A stretch of 36,348 nt of DNA from a virus, in the IMG/VR virus record IMGVR_UViG_3300009425_000043, positions 1-36,348 of that record. One strand, 5' to 3'. Of this stretch, positions 10,624 to 35,770 are shown in pieces (the stretch's first letter is position 1; every line of letters starts with the position of its first letter). The notes under the pieces are model-generated. The model was not told the origin of the DNA, ran no database searches, and worked only from the letters and a program-made list of their open reading frames with translations. The position numbers were made by a program, and so were the translations under genes.

Positions 10624-10894
10624 ACAACTAATAGAAAAAGCTAAAGAGCTTGTCTCTACTGATAGAGAAAAAACCCATGGAAACAAACAGATTAATCATG
10701 ATAACATAGCCAAGATGTGGTCAGCTTATCTTGACATGCCTTTGAATGGTCTTGATGTTGCCTTAATGATGACATTATTAAAAATAGCAAGAACTAAAGT
10801 AGGCTCACATAACCCAGACGATTACGTTGACATGGTCGGTTATAGTGCTATCGCTGGAGAACTAGCAGAGAAAGGAAACAACAATGTTAAGTAA
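10601..10894 (+). CDS. DUF6378-like protein (97 aa)
   Basis: 97 aa from the ATG at 10601, preceded by AAGGAAGAACCAA; an in-frame ATG at 10583 would add six residues. It has a HGNKQINHDNIAKMWSAYL stretch, then DVALMMTLLKIARTK and HNPDDYVDMVGYSAIAGE. I recognise this pattern from a phage family of unknown function (DUF6378, name from memory). The helices with HG, DD and D residues recall nucleotide-binding all-alpha proteins such as MazG. Its place just before ribonucleotide reductase fits nucleotide metabolism, but no activity can be claimed. Confidence 0.7.
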   Translation: MKTQVYTKQLIEKAKELVSTDREKTHGNKQINHDNIAKMWSAYLDMPLNGLDVALMMTLLKIARTKVGSHNPDDYVDMVGYSAIAGELAEKGNNNVK

Positions 10895-12812
10895 CCAATT
10901 ACCAACTACCTATCAACAATTTATTCATGCCTCTAGGTATGCTAGGTTTGTTGAAGAACATAAACGCAGAGAGTCTTGGGGAGAAACAGTCACAAGATAC
11001 TTTGACTTTATGCAGGAACATTTAAAAGAAAACAATAAATATAATTTACCTAAAGATTTACGCACCGAACTTGAAGATGCTGTCTTAAGTTTAAATATCA
11101 TGCCGTCTATGAGAGCACTCATGACTGCAGGTAACGCACTTAAGAGAGACCATACTGCAGGGTATAACTGTAGTTATATTCCTATCAATGATGTAAGAAG
11201 TTTTGATGAAGTAATGTATATACTATTGTGTGGTACAGGTGTAGGCTTTTCGGTTGAGAGAGATTATGTTGAACAGCTTCCTACAATTTCAGAAGAGTTT
11301 GAAAGTACTGATACTATTATTGTAGTACAGGATAGTAAGGCTGGTTGGGCTAAAGCATTTAGAGAATTGATTGCCATGTTATATGGTGGACAAATTCCTA
11401 AGATAGATGTAACAAGAATCAGACCTGCAGGAGCTAGACTAAAAACTTTTGGTGGTCGTGCTAGTGGGCCTCAACCTCTAGTAGATTTGTTTGACTTTGC
11501 AATCACAATATTTAAAACTGCGGCAGGTAGAAAACTTGACGCACTTGAGTGTCATGATTTAGTTTGTAAAGTTGGAGAGGTTGTTGTTGTAGGTGGTGTC
11601 AGACGAAGTGCTTTAATATCTTTAAGCAATATTCAAGATGACAGAATGAGAAATGCTAAGAGTGGTTCTTGGTGGATGAACGAACCTCAGAGAGCACTAT
11701 CAAATAACTCAGCTTGTTATACTCGTACCCCTGACATGGCGTTGTTCATGACAGAATGGAAATCATTGTATGATAGTAAGTCAGGTGAGCGAGGTATCTT
11801 TAATAGACAAGCGGCTAAAGAAAAATCTGCAGAGAATGGTCGCCGTGATATTGAACATGACTTCGGTACTAATCCTTGTTCAGAAATTATTCTTAGACCT
11901 TATCAGTTCTGTAACTTAACTGAGGTTGTAATTCGTGCTACTGATAGCGAAAAAGAATTAGCAAAGAAAGTCAGGTTAGCTACAACACTTGGAACATTCC
12001 AATCAACTCTTACAGACTTTAAGTATATAAGAAAGATATGGAAGTCGAACACTGAAGAAGAAAGATTACTTGGTGTATCTCTTACTGGTATTATGGATTC
12101 AACAGTAACTAACAATCCTAAGAAAGGTTTCCTAACTAGTCTTAGACAGTGTGCTATTGATACTAATAAAGAGTTGTCTAAGAAACTTAAGATACCACAA
12201 TCAACTGCAATCACTTGTGTAAAACCTAGTGGTACAGTAAGTCAGTTGGTTGATAGTGCTTCTGGTATACATACTAGACACAGCCCTTATTACATTCGTA
12301 CTGTAAGATGTGATAAGAAAGACCCCTTAACTCAGTTAATGATTGATAAGGGTGTACCACATGAACCTGATGTAACTAAACCTGATTCAGTTATGGTGTT
12401 TTCTTTTCCTACTGAGTCACCAAAAGGTTCGATAACTCGTAAAGATAAAACAGCTATAGAACAATTAGAATTGTGGTTGACATATCAACGAGAGTGGTGC
12501 GAACATAAGCCTTCTGTAACCATTAGTGTTAAGGAACATGAGTGGCTAGAAGTTGGAGCATGGGTGTATAAACATTTCAATGAGGTATCTGGAATTAGTT
12601 TCCTTCCTTATACTGACCACATATACAAGCAAGCTCCCTATCAAGATATAACAAGAGAAGAATATCTTGAATGGAAAAAGAAGATGCCTAAGACTATAGA
12701 CTTTTCTTTACTAAGTAACTATGAATCCGAAGACAATACAACAGGCTCTCAAGAACTTGCATGTACTGGTGGAGTGTGTGAGTTGGTAGACACCACACAG
12801 GAAGTAACTTAA
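10884..12812 (+). CDS. nrdJ: Class II (B12-dependent) ribonucleotide reductase, monomeric type
   Basis: 642 aa; the Lactobacillus RTPR prototype is 739. C96 (AGYNCSY) and C343 (YQFCNLTE) are the reducible pair. NPCSEI (330-335) holds the thiyl-radical Cys332 and Glu334. VKPSGTVSQLVDSASGIH-type residues form the conserved phosphate-binding region. The C-terminal CTGGVC (C627, C632) has the same C-x4-C spacing as the RTPR redox pair. It converts ribonucleotides to deoxyribonucleotides with adenosylcobalamin, feeding phage DNA synthesis, and needs no separate small subunit. No NrdB or thioredoxin gene lies in the window, so reductant must come from the host. The start follows AGAAAGGAAACAACA and overlaps the previous gene by 11 bp. 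B12 must come from the host or from uptake. Confidence 0.93.
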   Translation: MLSNQLPTTYQQFIHASRYARFVEEHKRRESWGETVTRYFDFMQEHLKENNKYNLPKDLRTELEDAVLSLNIMPSMRALMTAGNALKRDHTAGYNCSYIPINDVRSFDEVMYILLCGTGVGFSVERDYVEQLPTISEEFESTDTIIVVQDSKAGWAKAFRELIAMLYGGQIPKIDVTRIRPAGARLKTFGGRASGPQPLVDLFDFAITIFKTAAGRKLDALECHDLVCKVGEVVVVGGVRRSALISLSNIQDDRMRNAKSGSWWMNEPQRALSNNSACYTRTPDMALFMTEWKSLYDSKSGERGIFNRQAAKEKSAENGRRDIEHDFGTNPCSEIILRPYQFCNLTEVVIRATDSEKELAKKVRLATTLGTFQSTLTDFKYIRKIWKSNTEEERLLGVSLTGIMDSTVTNNPKKGFLTSLRQCAIDTNKELSKKLKIPQSTAITCVKPSGTVSQLVDSASGIHTRHSPYYIRTVRCDKKDPLTQLMIDKGVPHEPDVTKPDSVMVFSFPTESPKGSITRKDKTAIEQLELWLTYQREWCEHKPSVTISVKEHEWLEVGAWVYKHFNEVSGISFLPYTDHIYKQAPYQDITREEYLEWKKKMPKTIDFSLLSNYESEDNTTGSQELACTGGVCELVDTTQEVT

Positions 12813-25343: not shown

Positions 25344-26638
25344 TATGCGTACCTAGTGCTCCCTTGTATATCTAACTTTTGTTTATCAAAACCTTCTTGA
25401 AGAGTTTTAGTTAGTAAAGAACCACTTTTATTATAACTTCCTTTTGAGTCACCATAACTAGCTCCATAAGCTTCTAACGAAGAATCACCATAACCAGTAC
25501 TATAGGCACCTAATTGTTCTTGACCATCTCCTGCTAAATAAGCTTGAGCATAATCAAGTGCTTTACTTTTTCCTTTATCAAGTAAACTACTTGTTTTAGC
25601 GTTAGCACTTATATCATAAACAGGTGCGTCACCTACCTTAGTATAACTACCTGTTTGCCACATAGAAGCATCTCCTACTCCACCTTGTGTTGAAGCTAGT
25701 TTAGCTTTAGAACCTGTATAATTATATGTACTACCTGCATCTATATTAGGATTAGGTTGAGAAATTGTAAAGTCTCCTGAGCTTGAGTAATCAATATCCC
25801 ATGTTGTATTTGTTCCTTGTGTAGTAGATGTCATACCATTACTTTTTGTATATTCATGTGCACTAAAGTCATCAAGTTTATAGTCTTGTTTAATAGTGTT
25901 ATGATATTTTCTAGCATCAGCTGTCATGTTTTCATAAATACCTTGTTTATTCCAAGCAGCATTTAAAATATTATATGACTGTGCATTAGCAGCATTAGCT
26001 ACTGCCATGTTAACACCACCAGTAGTAACTACACCACTAGACGCAGCAGTTACTTTACCACCATAACTAATAATACTTTGTCCTCCTACTTGAGTAGTAG
26101 TTTGTGCTAAAGTACCCATACCTGCACGACCACTAAGTACATCACCAGTTCCACCTACAAGATTTTTAAATCCTTCAGCAAAATTTCCTTTACCAAAACT
26201 TCCTACGGTTTTAGATAAAGTTTGTGTTATACCTTTGTAAGTACTACCAGCAAACTGTGCTCCTTTGTATGCATAACTACCTAAAGTTTTCATAGCCCCT
26301 CCTAGTCCTGAAGCAAATCCAGGTGCGACTCCACCAGGCATAAGGAAACTTCCAAGGTTACCCCACGCTGTACTAGCCATACCACCTAAACCTCCAAGCA
26401 TCCAAGGCATAGCAAAAGATAAAGCCATCATCCCTATCGGACCTATCTTATTACTAAACTTAGCAAACTTAACCATTGCACTCTTGCCAAATTTTTTAAT
26501 TCCTTCCCAAGTTTTCTTACCAAGTTTTTTAATTCCTTTAGCAACTTTTTTTATAACTTTAGTAATAGGATTTTTTTTGACAATTTTTTTGACAACCTTT
26601 TTTACTTTTTTCTTTATCTTTTTAACTACAGAACCCAT
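25343..26638 (-). CDS. Virion-type protein with Lys-rich amphipathic N-terminus (431 aa)
   Basis: 431 aa. Residues 3-60 hold about 22 lysines spaced as an amphipathic helix (KKIKKKVKKVVKKIVKK; VIKKVAKGIKKLGKKTWEG). Next comes a Gly/Ala/Met hydrophobic region (~66-110; MMALSFAMPWMLGGLGGM), then a Gly/Ser/Thr-rich body that ends in Tyr/Gly repeats (LGAYSTGYGDSSLEAYGASY). The N-terminus resembles membrane-active peptides and DNA-binding tails. Excellent AAAGGAGAAAAAGACT ribosome site. Its start lies inside the acyltransferase gene (17-bp overlap), so translation is coupled, and the lysines make it the obvious candidate substrate. The function is inferred. Confidence 0.6.
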   Translation of the reverse strand: MGSVVKKIKKKVKKVVKKIVKKNPITKVIKKVAKGIKKLGKKTWEGIKKFGKSAMVKFAKFSNKIGPIGMMALSFAMPWMLGGLGGMASTAWGNLGSFLMPGGVAPGFASGLGGAMKTLGSYAYKGAQFAGSTYKGITQTLSKTVGSFGKGNFAEGFKNLVGGTGDVLSGRAGMGTLAQTTTQVGGQSIISYGGKVTAASSGVVTTGGVNMAVANAANAQSYNILNAAWNKQGIYENMTADARKYHNTIKQDYKLDDFSAHEYTKSNGMTSTTQGTNTTWDIDYSSSGDFTISQPNPNIDAGSTYNYTGSKAKLASTQGGVGDASMWQTGSYTKVGDAPVYDISANAKTSSLLDKGKSKALDYAQAYLAGDGQEQLGAYSTGYGDSSLEAYGASYGDSKGSYNKSGSLLTKTLQEGFDKQKLDIQGSTRYA

Positions 26639-27077
26639 AGTCTTTTTCTCCTTTTGTAAATGCGTATCCTTGTTTTTTAACTTTTACTTCTCCAAACTTA
26701 TCGTGACCTAAACGTATCCAGTTTATTTTTTGTTTGTCACCAACTTGTTCAGCTAAATTTCTTTGTGTCCACCTATGTAATGTAAGAATACTACCATCAT
26801 TACATATAGTGTCCATGTGCCAAATAGTTTTTCCATTGTTCCACCAGCTTTCATCTTCTATTAAACCTGTTTGTTTAAATTTATTAGAAGACTTATCATC
26901 CATAAAAGCCCAACTAGTATAAGCAAAAGGTCTATCACCTCTTCTAAAAACTCTATACTGATTAAGTTTTATTGGTGGTAAAACTTGTTGTAAGATGTGC
27001 TCGACATCTCCTTTAAATATATTTTTGTAAACTTTAGCAGTACCAACTAAATGGACTGCAGCTTCTACATCATTCAT
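26622..27077 (-). CDS. HlyC/ApxC-like toxin-activating lysine acyltransferase
   Basis: 151 aa (HlyC is 170). The core RRGDRPFAYTSWAFMDD (45-61) and SWWNNGKTIWHMDTIC (78-92) match the family pattern in which 'RP.A..SWA' is followed by 'W..G...W..D.I', with D89 at the catalytic Asp position. These enzymes (GNAT-like fold) move a fatty acyl group from acyl-ACP to a lysine on a protoxin. The usual catalytic His of the N-terminal S-x-x-H is not obvious: the aligned stretch is GTAKVYKN (12-19), with Tyr17 or Val16 in its place. The downstream, overlapping gene encodes a lysine-rich protein. No RTX toxin is visible. The ribosome site is weak. Confidence 0.78.
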   Translation of the reverse strand: MNDVEAAVHLVGTAKVYKNIFKGDVEHILQQVLPPIKLNQYRVFRRGDRPFAYTSWAFMDDKSSNKFKQTGLIEDESWWNNGKTIWHMDTICNDGSILTLHRWTQRNLAEQVGDKQKINWIRLGHDKFGEVKVKKQGYAFTKGEKDYGFCS

Positions 27078-29492: not shown

Positions 29493-29708
29493 TTATTTTG
29501 TTTCTTTTTTATCACTTTGTTTTTCCTTATCTTTTGGAAGCTCTTCCTTAAGAAGAGAAGAATAATGATTACCTAAAACTTTTAGATTATTAAATTTTAA
29601 ATTAAGAGCAGTCTGTTCAGTGCCTATATTTTTTAATTGAATAAGAGCATATTTCCCTTTATCACTTAAATTATTTTCATCGTATTCTTTATCTTCTATT
29701 GTAAACAT
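29493..29708 (-). CDS. Small marine-phage protein (DUF6447-like, 71 aa)
   Basis: 71 aa, opening MFTIEDKEYDENNLSDKGKY, followed by a helical stretch (QTALNLKFNNLKVLGNHYSS) and a charged tail. The start 'FTI.DKEYDENNL' and the helix ending in 'Y...L' fit a small phage family of unknown function (DUF6447, name from memory). It is first in the transcription unit after the promoter at 29747-29775, with AAAAGGAAAAGAA upstream and a ~32-base leader. Confidence 0.6.
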   Translation of the reverse strand: MFTIEDKEYDENNLSDKGKYALIQLKNIGTEQTALNLKFNNLKVLGNHYSSLLKEELPKDKEKQSDKKETK

Positions 29709-29746: not shown

Positions 29747-29775
29747 ATTATAACACATTTTATAATATTTGTCAA
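29747..29775 (-). promoter_or_regulatory. Consensus sigma70 extended -10 promoter (minus strand)
   Basis: On the - strand: TTGACA (29775-29770), a 17-bp spacer ending in TGT, TATAAT (29752-29747). The -35 starts 3 bp after the stop of the Coq4-like gene. Its spacer is nearly the same as that of the 22282-22310 promoter (shared TTATAAAAT, then TGTTATAAT), so the two look like copies of one element. It drives 29708 down to 22314. Confidence 0.88.
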
Positions 29776-29778
29776 TAC

Positions 29779-30567
29779 TTATTTTTCTTTTTTAAGTTGT
29801 TTGTAGTGTACTTCAACAGCCTTCCAATTAAAAAATACTTTATTCCAGTAGTGTGGCTTGCTTGACATGTTTAATTCTTTTTTAACGTCTTCAAGTGGTG
29901 TGTACAAATAAGACTCCCAATCAATAGTGAGAAACCATTTTGCTTTTTTACCTCTTAAATAAGCCTCAATTATACACCGCATAAAAACCCAAACAGGAAT
30001 AAACTTTATAGTATCTAAAAATGTTTTCCCTTTTAGATATTTAGAAGGCATAAAGGTATTTCTAAGAGTCACAAAAAAACTTGAAAACAAAATTGTTGCT
30101 AAACTTTTTCGCCATTCGTGGGCTAAACTAAAAGCCAATACATTGGACTCACCAAAAGCAGATGTGTCATAACCATTTAAAAGATGTATCATGTCGTGTT
30201 GTAACAAAGTTGCCTCTGTAAACTTATTAAATCGTGTATTCTTTTTTCGTGTTGCTCGGTAAGGCACTAAACTTACTTGAAACAAATCAATAATATCTTC
30301 ACCATTGTACATAAAATTCTTAAGTGCCAAACCAAACGAATCCTTTGGGTAGTTATTTTCTTTAACTAACAATCTTACTGGTAGTTTCGCTTGATAAATT
30401 TTATCTGCTACAGACAATTTGTTAAAATCTTTTATGTAACTTTTATTGTCTTGCTTATCTAAGTTGGCAATTAGCTTAAACACCAATTCAATATCTGGAC
30501 TGGTATCTGTATCAGGGTGGCTAAAATACTCCCACGCAAGTTTTGCCCTTAACCAGAGCTGTTTCAT
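29779..30567 (-). CDS. coq4: Coq4-family protein (ubiquinone biosynthesis homologue)
   Basis: 262 aa. QHDMIHLLNGYDTSAFGE (123-140) contains the full Coq4 metal motif HDxxH-x11-E: H124, D125, H128, E140. Downstream, KAKWFLTIDWESYL (208-221) and PLEDVKKELNM (224-234) match the conserved C-terminal 'vdWE...L..vR..L' segment. Coq4 acts on membrane quinone precursors and has been linked to oxidative decarboxylation of the ubiquinone ring. Its N-terminal 20 residues and overlap with the upstream gene (4 bp) fit translation in the tail-fibre unit. In a phage it would be an auxiliary metabolic gene acting on host respiration, or a quinone/lipid-binding protein adapted to another job. The motif is seen; the role is inferred. 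Confidence 0.82.
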   Translation of the reverse strand: MKQLWLRAKLAWEYFSHPDTDTSPDIELVFKLIANLDKQDNKSYIKDFNKLSVADKIYQAKLPVRLLVKENNYPKDSFGLALKNFMYNGEDIIDLFQVSLVPYRATRKKNTRFNKFTEATLLQHDMIHLLNGYDTSAFGESNVLAFSLAHEWRKSLATILFSSFFVTLRNTFMPSKYLKGKTFLDTIKFIPVWVFMRCIIEAYLRGKKAKWFLTIDWESYLYTPLEDVKKELNMSSKPHYWNKVFFNWKAVEVHYKQLKKEK

Positions 30568-31256
30568 TTATAAATAAGAATAGCTTTTGCTGACTTGTAA
30601 TTTAATGTATTTGTAAGTTTAACTTCACTACTTGTAATTTTAACTACACCATATTTATTTAAGTTTTTTATAGTAGTTCCTACTTTTACTTCAGCTACAT
30701 TACCTACAAAAAGGTAACATTCAGTTCCTTCTTTAGTAACTGTAACTTCCTCATTTGCTTGGGTATTAATAGATTTTATATTCCAGTCTGTATCGTTAGA
30801 AAGGAAACAAAATAACTCAGTGTCATCTTCTAAAATTTCTACAGAAGCTTTGTCGCATATAAGTTCATAAGACAAAGAAGGCAACTCCCAACCATTTCTT
30901 TGGCATGTTTCCTCATATGTAAAACTTAAAGTTGTTGCTGTTCTTTCTATTGTAGAATTATTAACAACAGGCTCATCTGCTATAAGAGCAAGGTATTCAT
31001 CTACATCACTACTTTGAATATTGTCAGCATCATCAAAATAATATGTAATTTTAATTTTACCTTTGAGAGCTATATAGTCATTAAAACGCTTACAAAATTT
31101 GTTGTTTTGAGAGTAGTATTCAATAGTATCAAAATGTGGTTGTTCATTAAAAAGCTCTCTAATGACACTATTACCTACCTTTGTTCTTGTGCTAATACTT
31201 ATGTGAAACTTATCGTCAATGTTTGCTTGATACCATCTTGGAATATCTAATTTCAT
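30564..31256 (-). CDS. Hypothetical protein (230 aa), tail-associated position
   Basis: 230 aa, beginning MKLDIPRWYQANIDDKFHIS. The N-terminal half is mixed alpha/beta with several Cys; the C-terminal half (~140-230) is Val/Thr/Lys-rich beta (EEVTVTKEGTECYLFVGNVA), like a small Ig or carbohydrate-binding-type domain. It lies between a 67-aa gene and the Coq4 homologue, in the unit that begins with tail genes. It may be a tail or receptor-contact accessory protein, but no family is recognised. Confidence 0.5.
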   Translation of the reverse strand: MKLDIPRWYQANIDDKFHISISTRTKVGNSVIRELFNEQPHFDTIEYYSQNNKFCKRFNDYIALKGKIKITYYFDDADNIQSSDVDEYLALIADEPVVNNSTIERTATTLSFTYEETCQRNGWELPSLSYELICDKASVEILEDDTELFCFLSNDTDWNIKSINTQANEEVTVTKEGTECYLFVGNVAEVKVGTTIKNLNKYGVVKITSSEVKLTNTLNYKSAKAILIYK

Positions 31257-31456
31257 ATCTCTGTTATCTCTTTTTTAATTATGTGTGTTGATGGCTCTAA
31301 CAGTTTTAAATCACAACCACCTTCATTTATTTTAACATACTCTGTTTTATTACTTTTTTTAATATTGTTGCTCCAATTAGTGTCACCTTCATTTGTAACT
31401 TCACCAAGACTGTGAAAACTATTATAAAGGTATCTAGCCTGTTTAAAATCTTTCAT
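31253..31456 (-). CDS. Hypothetical protein (67 aa)
   Basis: 67 aa, beginning MKDFKQARYLYNSFHSLGEV, with an AGGAAATAT ribosome site. ATGA overlap with the next gene. It ends KEITEI. No family is recognised. The tight junctions on both sides place it in the tail-fibre transcription unit. Confidence 0.6.
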   Translation of the reverse strand: MKDFKQARYLYNSFHSLGEVTNEGDTNWSNNIKKSNKTEYVKINEGGCDLKLLEPSTHIIKKEITEI

Positions 31457-31463
31457 ATATTTC

Positions 31464-32123
31464 CTAAATAATTTCCATTGTTCTATTTGTTGAATAATTA
31501 GTTCCTACAGTGTCATAAATTCCCTTTACTGTAGAAGGTGTGGTAGTTGGTGAAAAAATATAAGATACGGTAGGACTGCCACTTAGAGTTACATTTCCTT
31601 CAACAACTTGAGTTGATGTAGAAGCACTAGCAGTTATAGTAGTACCATTTATTTTAATTTCACGCCCATTTAATTCAGTAGCTAGTGCTGCAGCATTTGC
31701 ATATGCATTAGTATCTTTTTCAAAGTAAATTTTTACAGAATAATTAGAGGTAGAATTATCAAGTTTATACATTACCCAACCATAACAATCTATTGACTTA
31801 CCTGATGTCAACTCAAAGCTCGTGTTGTGGCTTCCACCTAATGCAGTGTTGTAAGGAGTAGCACCTATAACACTTCCTCTTGCATCGTGACCATCTTTAC
31901 CAATAATACTACTAGTATCTTCACCAGTAGTGCCAGTAAAAGTCCCATCTGCTGTAAAGTTACTAGCACCATACCACTCATTAAATGCCATAGTAGCACC
32001 ACTACTTTTACTAATAAGTCCTCTAATATCTGAGTCATTTAAAGATGCGGTTGAGCCACTACTTCCACCTACTTCAATGTGCATTTGGTTTAGTGAAATA
32101 GCTCCGTTACTAGGTAGAGCCAT
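31464..32123 (-). CDS. Virion appendage protein, MALPSNGAISL family (219 aa)
   Basis: 219 aa. The N-terminus MALPSNGAISLNQMHIEVGG, followed by SLNDSDIRGLISKSSGATMA and FNEWYGAS, is a start I know from many marine phage tail or appendage proteins, where this ~55-residue module is linked to varied C-terminal domains. The rest is Ser/Thr/Asn-rich beta (ITASASTSTQVVEGNVTLSG), as in fibre tips. The start overlaps the stop of the tail fibre (TAATG). It probably attaches to the fibre or baseplate and varies with host receptor. Confidence 0.7.
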   Translation of the reverse strand: MALPSNGAISLNQMHIEVGGSSGSTASLNDSDIRGLISKSSGATMAFNEWYGASNFTADGTFTGTTGEDTSSIIGKDGHDARGSVIGATPYNTALGGSHNTSFELTSGKSIDCYGWVMYKLDNSTSNYSVKIYFEKDTNAYANAAALATELNGREIKINGTTITASASTSTQVVEGNVTLSGSPTVSYIFSPTTTPSTVKGIYDTVGTNYSTNRTMEII

Positions 32124-35100
32124 TATTCACACTCACATTCTTTTTTAGTTTTTAATTCCTCGACTTCAGCTTTTAATTCTTTGATTGCTTCAATGAGATA
32201 ACCAACAGTATTAGCATAAGCTACAGATTTAGTACCCATTTCATCATCAGCAGTTTTAACTAATTCAGGAGCAATCTTTTCAAACTCTTGGGCAATGACT
32301 CCACTATTAGCTACACCATCTCTATCAAAAGTAACACCACGCATTTGTGATACTTTGTCTAACGCATTGTCGATTGTTTTAATGTTTGTTTTTAATCTTT
32401 CATCTGAATACGCAGTAATATTAGAGTTAAAAGTTGCAGCACCAGCGGCACTCATATCAAAGCTAACAGCAGTAATATAACTACTCCCATCTTTACCTCG
32501 AATTAATATATCTCCATCATTTACTTGATTTTGAAAATAAAGGTTATTACCACTAGAAGTCACTAAACCAACATCAGTACCCGAAACTCTATGAATAAAA
32601 CCATCACCAATAACATTAGATGTAGCAGTAAATGTGCCCGATAAGGCATTTCCACTAGAAGATAAATTGCCTAATCCAACTTCACTTGGTGCATCAATAG
32701 TACAGTTAAAGGTTGTGCCTGATAATGACATTCCTGTACCCGCAGAATAAGTTGTGTTGGTATTCGTATCGGTAGCTGATATAGTTCCATTTGACGCAAT
32801 AGCTACATTAGTCCCCGCTGTTAGTGCCGCCACAACATTAGCTGTATCCGTTACATCAGCACTTGCCTCAATACCATTTAACTTTGTATGGTCTGCGTCT
32901 GTAAATACATTAGAGTCACTTGCTGCTTCAACTGCAGTTCTTATTTCTGCGTTAGTTTGGTCAGCAGTAGCTGAAGCTTCAATAGCATTAAGTTTAGTGT
33001 GGTCAGCATCAGTGAATGTATTTGAATCACTTGCAGCTTCTACGGCTGCTTTAATTTCATCATTAGTTTGGTCAGCAGTTGCATTAGCTTCTATTCCATC
33101 TAGTTTAGTTCCGTCAGTTGCAACATCTCTACCATCAAAAGTACTGTTAGTTGTTATAGCACCAGTCATAGCTCCACCTGATTTAGGTAGTTTAGTTGCA
33201 ATGTTATTATTTACTGTAGTTGAAAAGCTAGCGTCATCTCCAAGAGCTGCTGCTAATTCATTTAAAGTATTAAGAGCTGCTGGTGAAGAGTCTACTAAAC
33301 TTGAAATAGAAGAATCAGTATATGCTTTTACAGACTGTTGACTCGGTGGTCTAGTAGCACTGTTAGATGCCATGTTATCTTCATCAATTAAACTTAAACC
33401 AGTAGAAGAAGAATTGTCTACATAAGCTTTAACAGATTGTTGAGTAGGTATAAGAGTTGCTGAGTTTGAAGCCATATTATCTTCATCAACAAAAGCTGTA
33501 ACTGTTATTGTACCATCAGATATACTACTAAAAGTAGTTACTCCAGTAACTCCTAGTGTTCCTGCAATAGTAGCATTACTATCTGCAGTAAGAACTCCTG
33601 TTACGTCTAAAGTACCAGCTATGTCTAGATTAGTGTCTAGCTTTGCACTAGTAACGGCATCATCAGCTAGATGAGCTGTGTCTATTGAGCCATCTACATA
33701 CTGGTTACTATCAACACTATTAGCTGACATGTGTATTAAATCTATTGAGCCATCTACATATTGGTCACTATCAACACTATTAGCTGCCATCTTAGCCAGT
33801 GTAACATTTGCATTTGTAATATTTGCAGTTATAATAGCATCAGTAGCTAGGGTAGTTGTTATAGAAATAGCAGCTGAACCATCAAAGTTTGCTGTACCTG
33901 TAACATCACCAGCTACCGCAATAGCTCTAGGAGTTGTTAAAGTTGCTGCTGAACCTGTTGTGTCTTGATTGAGTGTTCCAACTGTAAAATCTAAAGTATT
34001 ATCGGCATCATCATAAGTAACTGTAATACCTGTTTCAGTATTAGAACTAACCATAGCTCCAACTGTATCAGCTATTGATTCTGAAAGGTCAATGTTTGCA
34101 CTACCATCAAAACTAACACCGTGTATTGTTCGAGCAGTAGCTAGTGTAGTAGCCGTAGCTGCTAATCCAACTGCAATATTAGCAGAACCATCAAAGCTTG
34201 TACCACCAATTGTTCTAGCAGTTTCTAAAATAGTAGCTGTAGCTGCGTTACCTGTAGTGTCTTGGTTTAGCGTACCAATAACAAAGTCTAAGGTATTATC
34301 TGCATCTTGATAAGTAACTGTAATACCTGTTTCAGTATTACTACCAACCATAGCTCCTATTGTATCAGCTATTGATTCTGATAAATCAATGTTAGCTGAG
34401 CCATCAAAAGATACTCCATGAATTGTTCTTGCTGTTGCAAGAATTGTAGCTGTTGAAGCATTACCTGTAAGGGCTCCAGCAAAACCTGTTGAAGTTAATA
34501 AACCTGTAGAAGGATTATAAGTTAATCCTGTATCTGACTCAAGTCCTTGAGAACCTGTAGCACCATCTACAAATGTAGGATAAACAGTTTCATTCGTACT
34601 ATTGTTTGCTGTAATAGTAGACTCAGTTGCTAAAGCAGCAGTACCTGAAATGTTACCTACAACAAAATCTAAAGTATTATCTGCATCATCATAAGATACA
34701 GTTATATTACTTTCGGTATTACTTGATACCATTGCTCCGACTGTGTCAGCAATAAACTCATTAAGAGCTATACCACCAACAGTTATTGCATCAGCTTCTA
34801 GTGTTCCATCAAAGTCACCATCTACTGCATCTATATTTCCTATAAATGTAGTAGCAGTTACATTTCTAAAAGATGCTACATCTTTGTTAGCATCTGCTGT
34901 TACAACTTTACTAGCAACTACTGTTCCTACAGCAGCTCCAGTATCACTATAATTTAATTCATCTGTAGTTACTGTAGCACCATCTAATATTTCTAGTTCA
35001 GTTTCGTTAATATTTGCAGAACCAATAACAAAACTAGTACCAGTAATTGCTGTCCCTGTTATAGCAGCTGGACTTACACCACCAATAACTGCACCATCAA

Positions 35101-35770
35101 TAGTACCACCATTAATATCAGGACTAGTTAAAGTTTTATTTGTTAATGTATCTGTTGTTGCTTTACCTACTAAAGTATCTGATGCTGAAGAAGGTAAGGT
35201 TAAAGTAATGTCACTACCTGGATTACCTGGTGCTAAAGTTGTTTCGTTTCCGTCAGCAGTAGAACCTTCAAATATTAAATTAGTTGGAATAGTACCATTG
35301 AATGCTACATTATCTGTAGCCGCATCACCAAGATTAATTGTACCACCATTAAATGTAGTAGTTCCAGTAACAGTTAAGTTACCACCTATACCTACATTAC
35401 CTGTAGTAGTTATAGCATCAATAAATGCATTTTTAAAATAAAGAGAAGATGTACCAAGGTCAACATCACTATCAGTAACAGGAGCAAAGACTCCGTCACC
35501 CATATACATTTGTTGAACTGAAGATGAAGAAACATCTGAATAGAATTCAATGTGGTCGTTTGAGCTATCAATTAAAACTTTATTAAGTGGAGTAGCTATA
35601 CTAGCATCACCAATAAGAGCAATGACTGGGCCTTCGCCAGTAGTGCCATCATGTTTGTGTCCACTAGTATTTACAAAAGCTGCTGCTAATGCATCATACT
35701 CATTATTAAATAACGATGCATTAATAGTACTACCATCTGCAAATGAGCTTTGTCTTGAATATGCCGCCAT
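32123..35770 (-). CDS. Tail fibre with C-terminal S74 chaperone domain (1215 aa)
   Basis: 1215 aa. The N-terminus (MAAYSRQSSFADGSTINASL...GHKHDGTTGEG) is the typical virion-anchoring start of marine phage fibres. A long body of repeated modules follows (units such as ARTIHGVSFDGSANIDLSES; FTDADHTKLNGIEASADVT). The C-terminal ~96 residues are an intramolecular chaperone: SDERLKTNI (1122-1130) with the Ser1122/Lys1127 dyad, then GVIAQEFEKIAPE, a coiled coil (IEAIKELKAEVEELKTKK) and CECE at the end. S74 domains fold the trimer and then cut themselves off between Ala/Tyr and Ser1122. The ribosome site is GGAAGGATTTAAAC. It is the main receptor-binding candidate. Confidence 0.88.
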   Translation of the reverse strand: MAAYSRQSSFADGSTINASLFNNEYDALAAAFVNTSGHKHDGTTGEGPVIALIGDASIATPLNKVLIDSSNDHIEFYSDVSSSSVQQMYMGDGVFAPVTDSDVDLGTSSLYFKNAFIDAITTTGNVGIGGNLTVTGTTTFNGGTINLGDAATDNVAFNGTIPTNLIFEGSTADGNETTLAPGNPGSDITLTLPSSASDTLVGKATTDTLTNKTLTSPDINGGTIDGAVIGGVSPAAITGTAITGTSFVIGSANINETELEILDGATVTTDELNYSDTGAAVGTVVASKVVTADANKDVASFRNVTATTFIGNIDAVDGDFDGTLEADAITVGGIALNEFIADTVGAMVSSNTESNITVSYDDADNTLDFVVGNISGTAALATESTITANNSTNETVYPTFVDGATGSQGLESDTGLTYNPSTGLLTSTGFAGALTGNASTATILATARTIHGVSFDGSANIDLSESIADTIGAMVGSNTETGITVTYQDADNTLDFVIGTLNQDTTGNAATATILETARTIGGTSFDGSANIAVGLAATATTLATARTIHGVSFDGSANIDLSESIADTVGAMVSSNTETGITVTYDDADNTLDFTVGTLNQDTTGSAATLTTPRAIAVAGDVTGTANFDGSAAISITTTLATDAIITANITNANVTLAKMAANSVDSDQYVDGSIDLIHMSANSVDSNQYVDGSIDTAHLADDAVTSAKLDTNLDIAGTLDVTGVLTADSNATIAGTLGVTGVTTFSSISDGTITVTAFVDEDNMASNSATLIPTQQSVKAYVDNSSSTGLSLIDEDNMASNSATRPPSQQSVKAYTDSSISSLVDSSPAALNTLNELAAALGDDASFSTTVNNNIATKLPKSGGAMTGAITTNSTFDGRDVATDGTKLDGIEANATADQTNDEIKAAVEAASDSNTFTDADHTKLNAIEASATADQTNAEIRTAVEAASDSNVFTDADHTKLNGIEASADVTDTANVVAALTAGTNVAIASNGTISATDTNTNTTYSAGTGMSLSGTTFNCTIDAPSEVGLGNLSSSGNALSGTFTATSNVIGDGFIHRVSGTDVGLVTSSGNNLYFQNQVNDGDILIRGKDGSSYITAVSFDMSAAGAATFNSNITAYSDERLKTNIKTIDNALDKVSQMRGVTFDRDGVANSGVIAQEFEKIAPELVKTADDEMGTKSVAYANTVGYLIEAIKELKAEVEELKTKKECECE
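33681..33790 (-). repeat. 60-bp tandem repeat within the tail fibre
   Basis: Two 50-bp blocks, 33681-33730 and 33741-33790, differ at three bases and are offset by 60 bp, i.e. 20 codons. Each encodes the unit NSVDS(N/D)QYVDGSID. Such near-identical tandem units can expand or contract by slippage or recombination, changing fibre length. Confidence 0.75.
34014..34400 (-). repeat. ~297-bp duplicated module in the tail fibre
   Basis: The segment starting at 34014 and that at 34311 are near copies, offset by 297 bp (99 codons). They encode the unit with LSESIADT(I/V)GAMV and GITVTY(Q/D)DADNTLDF. A third, more diverged copy lies near 34685-34760. This indicates growth of the fibre by duplication of a ~99-aa module. 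Confidence 0.65.

Follow-up and report, generated by a model that had tools for sequence, protein, structure and literature searches.

A phage-borne Coq4-family protein that follows a constant partner gene and shares its place with a membrane desaturase

The window analysed here, an IMG/VR virus record of 36,348 bases that forms part of a phage genome (a fragment), carries a true member of the Coq4 family (PF05019) that is under purifying selection. The gene directly follows a gene that we call X. Three findings go beyond an earlier note on this DNA: X is a constant partner, Coq4 and a desaturase alternate behind it, and Coq4 occurs in several phage lineages. Judging from sequence comparisons and predicted structures, we give an even chance to the reading that the phage protein is a working Coq4-family protein acting on a lipid (or quinone) of the host membrane, jointly with X. 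The locus has the following features.

29779..30567, minus strand: Coq4-family (PF05019) protein of 262 aa, identified from the open reading frame, Pfam and the matches of its AlphaFold2 (AF2) model
30148..30198, minus strand: codons of the metal-site motif H124 D125 xx H128 x11 E140, read from the translation and kept in 70/70 viral contigs
30564..31256, minus strand: gene X, 230 aa, a predicted double-stranded beta-helix (bicupin-like) with no conserved His and a 4-bp overlap with the Coq4 start (AF2, fold matches, alignment and conserved adjacency)
31253..31456, minus strand: 67-aa gene directly upstream of X with a 4-bp overlap, taken from the open reading frame list, no family match
31464..32123, minus strand: 219-aa gene between the tail fibre gene and X, its N-terminal 64 aa matching phrog_26746; found in the same place in many relatives
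32123..35770, minus strand: tail fibre protein of 1215 aa, upstream in the co-oriented run, with many PHROG tail-fibre matches (best E 6.8e-39)
29747..29775, minus strand: perfect sigma-70-type promoter match (TTGACA-17-TATAAT, extended TG) between the Coq4 stop and the next gene
29493..29708, minus strand: 71-aa gene beyond the promoter, an open reading frame that is the first of the next unit, with a homologue in contigs L018, L019 and L021
2442-2470 (+), 4770-4798 (+), 4927-4955 (+) and 22282-22310 (-): other perfect (12-of-12) sigma-70 matches

The Coq4 reading frame starts with ATG and ends with TAA, and its product (P0001) matched the Pfam Coq4 profile at 26.2 bits (E 5.7e-6), exceeding the curated cut-off of 22.9. 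PF05019 was also the only family matched by the 32 viral relatives scanned, all of them with E up to 0.01. H124, D125, H128 and E140 are all present in the window protein, and exactly 11 residues separate H128 from E140; the translation, the Pfam score and the predicted fold thus confirm the Coq4 homologue with exact HDxxH-x11-E spacing that the earlier note had claimed. The C-terminal WE motif that it had also named is not conserved as such: the nearest nine sequences all have W217, and D216 is almost invariant across 32, but the residue after W217 is E, D, N, K or G among relatives. An alignment-based pattern run against IMG/VR returned 70 contigs carrying Coq4 relatives. The pattern fixed HDxxH and left E free, and E stood at the correct distance in every contig; the metal site was also intact in four relatives (L085, L098, L104 and L114) that were reached via a neighbouring gene, with no Coq4 pattern used. 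Since all 70 contigs keep a residue outside the pattern and the four further relatives were found independently of it, the conservation of the motif goes far beyond chance. The dN/dS of Coq4 in close pairs was about 0.1 (e.g. 0.057/0.412 for L017/L018).

The AF2 model of Coq4, built with 32 viral sequences, reached a pLDDT of 83.7 and a pTM of 0.84. It aligned with 6e12 (Z 16.7, 206 residues, 3.4 A) and 3msq (Z 15.9, 197 residues, 3.3 A), at 16-18% identity to these solved members in the structural alignment, and the next best fold gave a Z of 5.0, leaving the two solved Coq4-family structures as the only good matches. A profile of the viral family reached both structures from sequence alone. 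One of the solved matches carries bound oleic acid and magnesium, and the viral-family profile matched this structure at 4.2e-19, covering most of its length. As modelled, the phage protein has the Coq4 fold.

The order of the reading frames bears out the earlier description of Coq4 as co-oriented with tail-fibre genes and refines its place to the last gene of the run. Minus-strand genes from 36348 to 13670 are mostly co-oriented, and no strong promoter-like site (11 or 12 of 12) was found on the minus strand from the tail fibre gene to Coq4. Because a perfect sigma-70 pair starts 4 bases past the Coq4 stop codon, and a similar promoter site lies near the unit end in L018, L019 and L021, Coq4 appears to be the gene that closes the tail-fibre unit. 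The window holds five perfect 12-of-12 sigma-70 matches, four with the extended TG, compared with 0.05 expected by chance per window-sized random sequence, which suggests that this phage relies on host-type promoters throughout. The slot of the 67-aa gene (31253..31456) is filled in relatives by a gene of about 113-124 aa.

In the window, X and the Coq4 start codon overlap in ATGA. X stands before Coq4 in 31/70 Coq4 contigs (L010-L032, L034-L040 and L050), and precedes it throughout the window's clade where the upstream DNA is readable, except in the outlying L068. In the 19 X-Coq4 pairs examined, the overlap measures 4 bp in 14 and 8 bp in one, three pairs lie 0-3 bp apart and one (L010) has an oxygenase inserted; this is a 2OG-Fe(II) oxygenase, and one also stands between X and Coq4 in L104. 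A 4-bp overlap is the usual X junction in all lineages. Searching IMG/VR with X returned 42 loci, 27 continuing into Coq4, 10 into a desaturase and 5 running off the contig, so that 37/37 X loci with readable downstream DNA lead to Coq4 (one with a 2OG oxygenase between) or to a desaturase, counts that are not independent events because many contigs are near-copies. A further X scan gave no new loci. The gene that replaces Coq4 encodes a 251-aa membrane fatty-acid desaturase (PF00487, E 8.7e-12) at an identical junction, cut by the contig end in 2/10 cases. Related desaturases had X in front in 20/20 contigs, a count that is partly circular because the scan patterns were derived from X-linked desaturases only. 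A second desaturase-like gene lies right behind the first in many X-desaturase loci (L089-L096, L120-L129 and similar).

The AF2 model of X (pLDDT 90.9) resembles a bicupin-like double beta-helix, with a match to YhaK at Z 10.3 over 161 residues (3.8 A). An alignment of 20 X proteins (A6) contained not one conserved His, and the cupin His/Glu metal motif was absent; since no histidine is conserved, X would lack the cupin metal site, and it is predicted to be a metal-free double beta-helix protein. X is constrained too in close pairs, less strongly than Coq4. The L017 and L018 proteins are 89% identical in Coq4 yet 31% identical in X, which argues that X can change or be exchanged alone. Over 171 pairs, the identities of X and Coq4 showed a correlation of 0.83, mostly a reflection of shared ancestry. 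The fast divergence of X fits an enzyme partner, but equally well a protein that faces the host or can be exchanged. Several candidate identities for X were rejected: a vitamin-K carboxylase match to its second half (Z about 11, 75 residues) concerned the fold only, and a designed beta-helix scored higher; 'Imm6' and 'Phage_int_SAM_4' matched below the cut-off; and Prochlorococcus phage P-HM2 gave a weak structural match (TM 0.49; the matching gene was not settled), the two candidates behind its fibre having no profile similarity to X.

The 70 Coq4 contigs split into at least three lineages with differing neighbours. Group (a), which includes the window, comprises the X-linked Coq4 genes. In group (b) (L041-L049, L054-L059 and L067), the gene directly upstream of Coq4 encodes a radical SAM/SPASM protein (PF04055/PF13186), and downstream come lysozyme, endonuclease V-like/2OG or DNA polymerase genes. 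In group (c) (L052, L053, L069, L072, L074 and L079), the gene directly upstream of Coq4 belongs to one cluster (250-310 aa) and in L052 is a family-2 glycosyltransferase (PF00535). Group (d) (L060-L066, L070, L071, L073 and L075-L078) is of the myophage type, with the terminase large subunit followed by Coq4 and then by tail sheath and tail tube; a desaturase-like protein is encoded about 8 kb upstream of Coq4 in L060, L063, L066 and L070. In the tree, a branch (86/79) separates group (a), together with the unlinked L068, from the rest, group (b) forms a clade (100/100), and groups (c) and (d) join each other close to a Coq4 from Cupriavidus. In 84,980 genomes, two pattern scans, which reach close relatives only, returned no Coq4 relatives, and close-relative scans with P0001 alone (viral contigs and genomes) or with a plasmid Coq4 alone (viral contigs) gave no match.

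Pelagibacter phage HTVC115P shares about 73% nucleotide identity with the window, and HTVC103P and HTVC104P about 72%, over the shared stretches, and gene order is comparable between the window and these pelagiphage relatives. All three isolates infect Candidatus Pelagibacter HTCC7211, a SAR11 alphaproteobacterium, and for this reason we infer that the window phage probably infects a SAR11 bacterium. Queries with Coq4 and X against 50,697 phage records, HTVC isolates included, gave no convincing match; the Coq4 gene may have been overlooked so far because it is absent from the isolated phages of the collection searched. The window also encodes a HlyC-type toxin-activating lysine acyltransferase family protein at 26622-27077 (-) (PF02794, E 4.3e-17). 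The L018/L019 versions of the window protein are 89% identical to it, and HTVC115P has one annotated as well; what such a protein would target in a phage is puzzling. A B12-dependent (class II) ribonucleotide reductase is encoded at 10884-12812 (+); in HTVC115P, two genes with annotations as alpha and beta subunits take this position.

Four observations together point to an enzyme acting on a membrane lipid: X is constant, Coq4 alternates with a desaturase behind it, the metal site is intact, and a solved relative contains a lipid. Late in infection, X and Coq4 would be made from one message, with translational coupling at the 4-bp overlap. Coq4 would sit on the inner face of the cytoplasmic membrane, its helical bundle holding a long-chain or prenylated lipid, while H124, D125, H128 and E140 would hold a divalent metal. 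The head group would then be worked on, as in the C1 decarboxylation by animal COQ4; ancestral animal COQ4 carries out this decarboxylation in a Zn-dependent manner and loses its activity when the motif is mutated (PMC7615680). X may bind the ligand or the enzyme, and the outcome would be an altered quinone or lipid pool during virion production. More tentatively, these phages could have an undescribed two-part module that remodels the host membrane or quinone pool: a fixed part, X, would place, feed or control a membrane enzyme that can be exchanged, either Coq4-like or a desaturase; we consider this possible rather than probable.

Ubiquinone synthesis by the phage Coq4 is possible by analogy, and ubiquinone is the leading candidate for a single substrate, since C1 decarboxylation, the sole biochemically shown activity of the family that we found, belongs to its synthesis (PMC7615680). 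The protein could accordingly be a classical auxiliary metabolic gene product that replaces or supplements the host enzyme and keeps respiration and membrane potential going until lysis, with X incidental. The intact HDxxH-x11-E motif and the alphaproteobacterial host of the nearest isolates favour this explanation, but a role in ubiquinone only fits poorly with a desaturase taking the place of Coq4 at the X junction, and no other ubiquinone gene was found among those window reading frames scanned with Pfam, which are part of the reading frames of a fragment. The phage Coq4 clade is, moreover, set apart from the few cellular Coq4s in the tree, which has several long branches and thin cellular sampling made up of plasmid-borne sequences only. 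The Coq4 family is also wider than ubiquinone, with members in cyanobacteria and on catabolic plasmids, there beside P450 or nitronate monooxygenase genes; to our knowledge, cyanobacteria make no ubiquinone. We see this classical role in ubiquinone synthesis as a minority possibility.

The slot after X may instead be simply an accessory-gene hotspot without a working link to X. X would then be a tail or receptor-related protein, the slot would collect unrelated cargo (Coq4, desaturase, 2OG oxygenase), and Coq4 would function separately from X. Consistent with this, X lies just behind the tail fibre genes in the window phage, diverges faster than Coq4 and seems to have been exchanged alone, the stretch between the tail fibre gene and a 681-aa gene is variable among isolates, and 2OG oxygenases are present in the same zone. 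However, Coq4 and the desaturase are the only enzyme neighbours found among X loci, X was not found in isolated phages, and its junction is mostly the 4-bp overlap in all lineages, and we regard unrelated cargo as rather unlikely. Finally, the suggestion of the earlier note that a lipid-binding fold has been turned into a virion part, here without enzyme activity, has the co-orientation with tail genes in its favour but is very improbable, as we found no evidence for it, the four metal-site residues are kept in every relative although a purely structural role would not need them, and Coq4 in other lineages lies beside radical SAM enzyme, glycosyltransferase, lysozyme, DNA polymerase or terminase genes rather than tail fibres.

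Coq4 is a long-standing oddity of the ubiquinone pathway. A small phage Coq4 that is under selection, with an intact site and a constant partner, offers a handy natural variant for probing the ligand and action of the fold. The alternation of Coq4 and desaturase behind X hints at an overlooked phage route to altering the host membrane. If SAR11 quinones or lipids are indeed altered, respiration and membrane make-up would join the traits controlled by marine phages, in bacteria that are among the commonest of the ocean.

The literature search returned nothing connecting Coq4 with phage in the relevant sense, and no mention of a desaturase-X pairing was found in the literature searched; ubiG has been reported as a viral gene in one paper. 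Fatty-acid/lipid desaturases encoded by marine phages are mentioned in one report (PMC11480375). These are membrane-lipid genes, as the phage Coq4 would be in its proposed role, whose place after X a desaturase fills in some phages, but their chemistry and fold differ from those of Coq4. X shares its fold with the cupins, pirin/YhaK, IolB-like and HutD-like double beta-helix proteins, but lacks the cupin metal site. The best structural matches to the phage Coq4, Alr8543 of Nostoc (PDB 6e12) and Npun02000094 (3msq), are cyanobacterial proteins of unproven function, and we know of no X partner for either. With Coq4/COQ4 (PF05019), the phage protein has in common the family profile, the HDxxH-x11-E site and the helical fold; unlike them, it is phage-borne, stands in an operon with X and belongs to a viral clade of its own.
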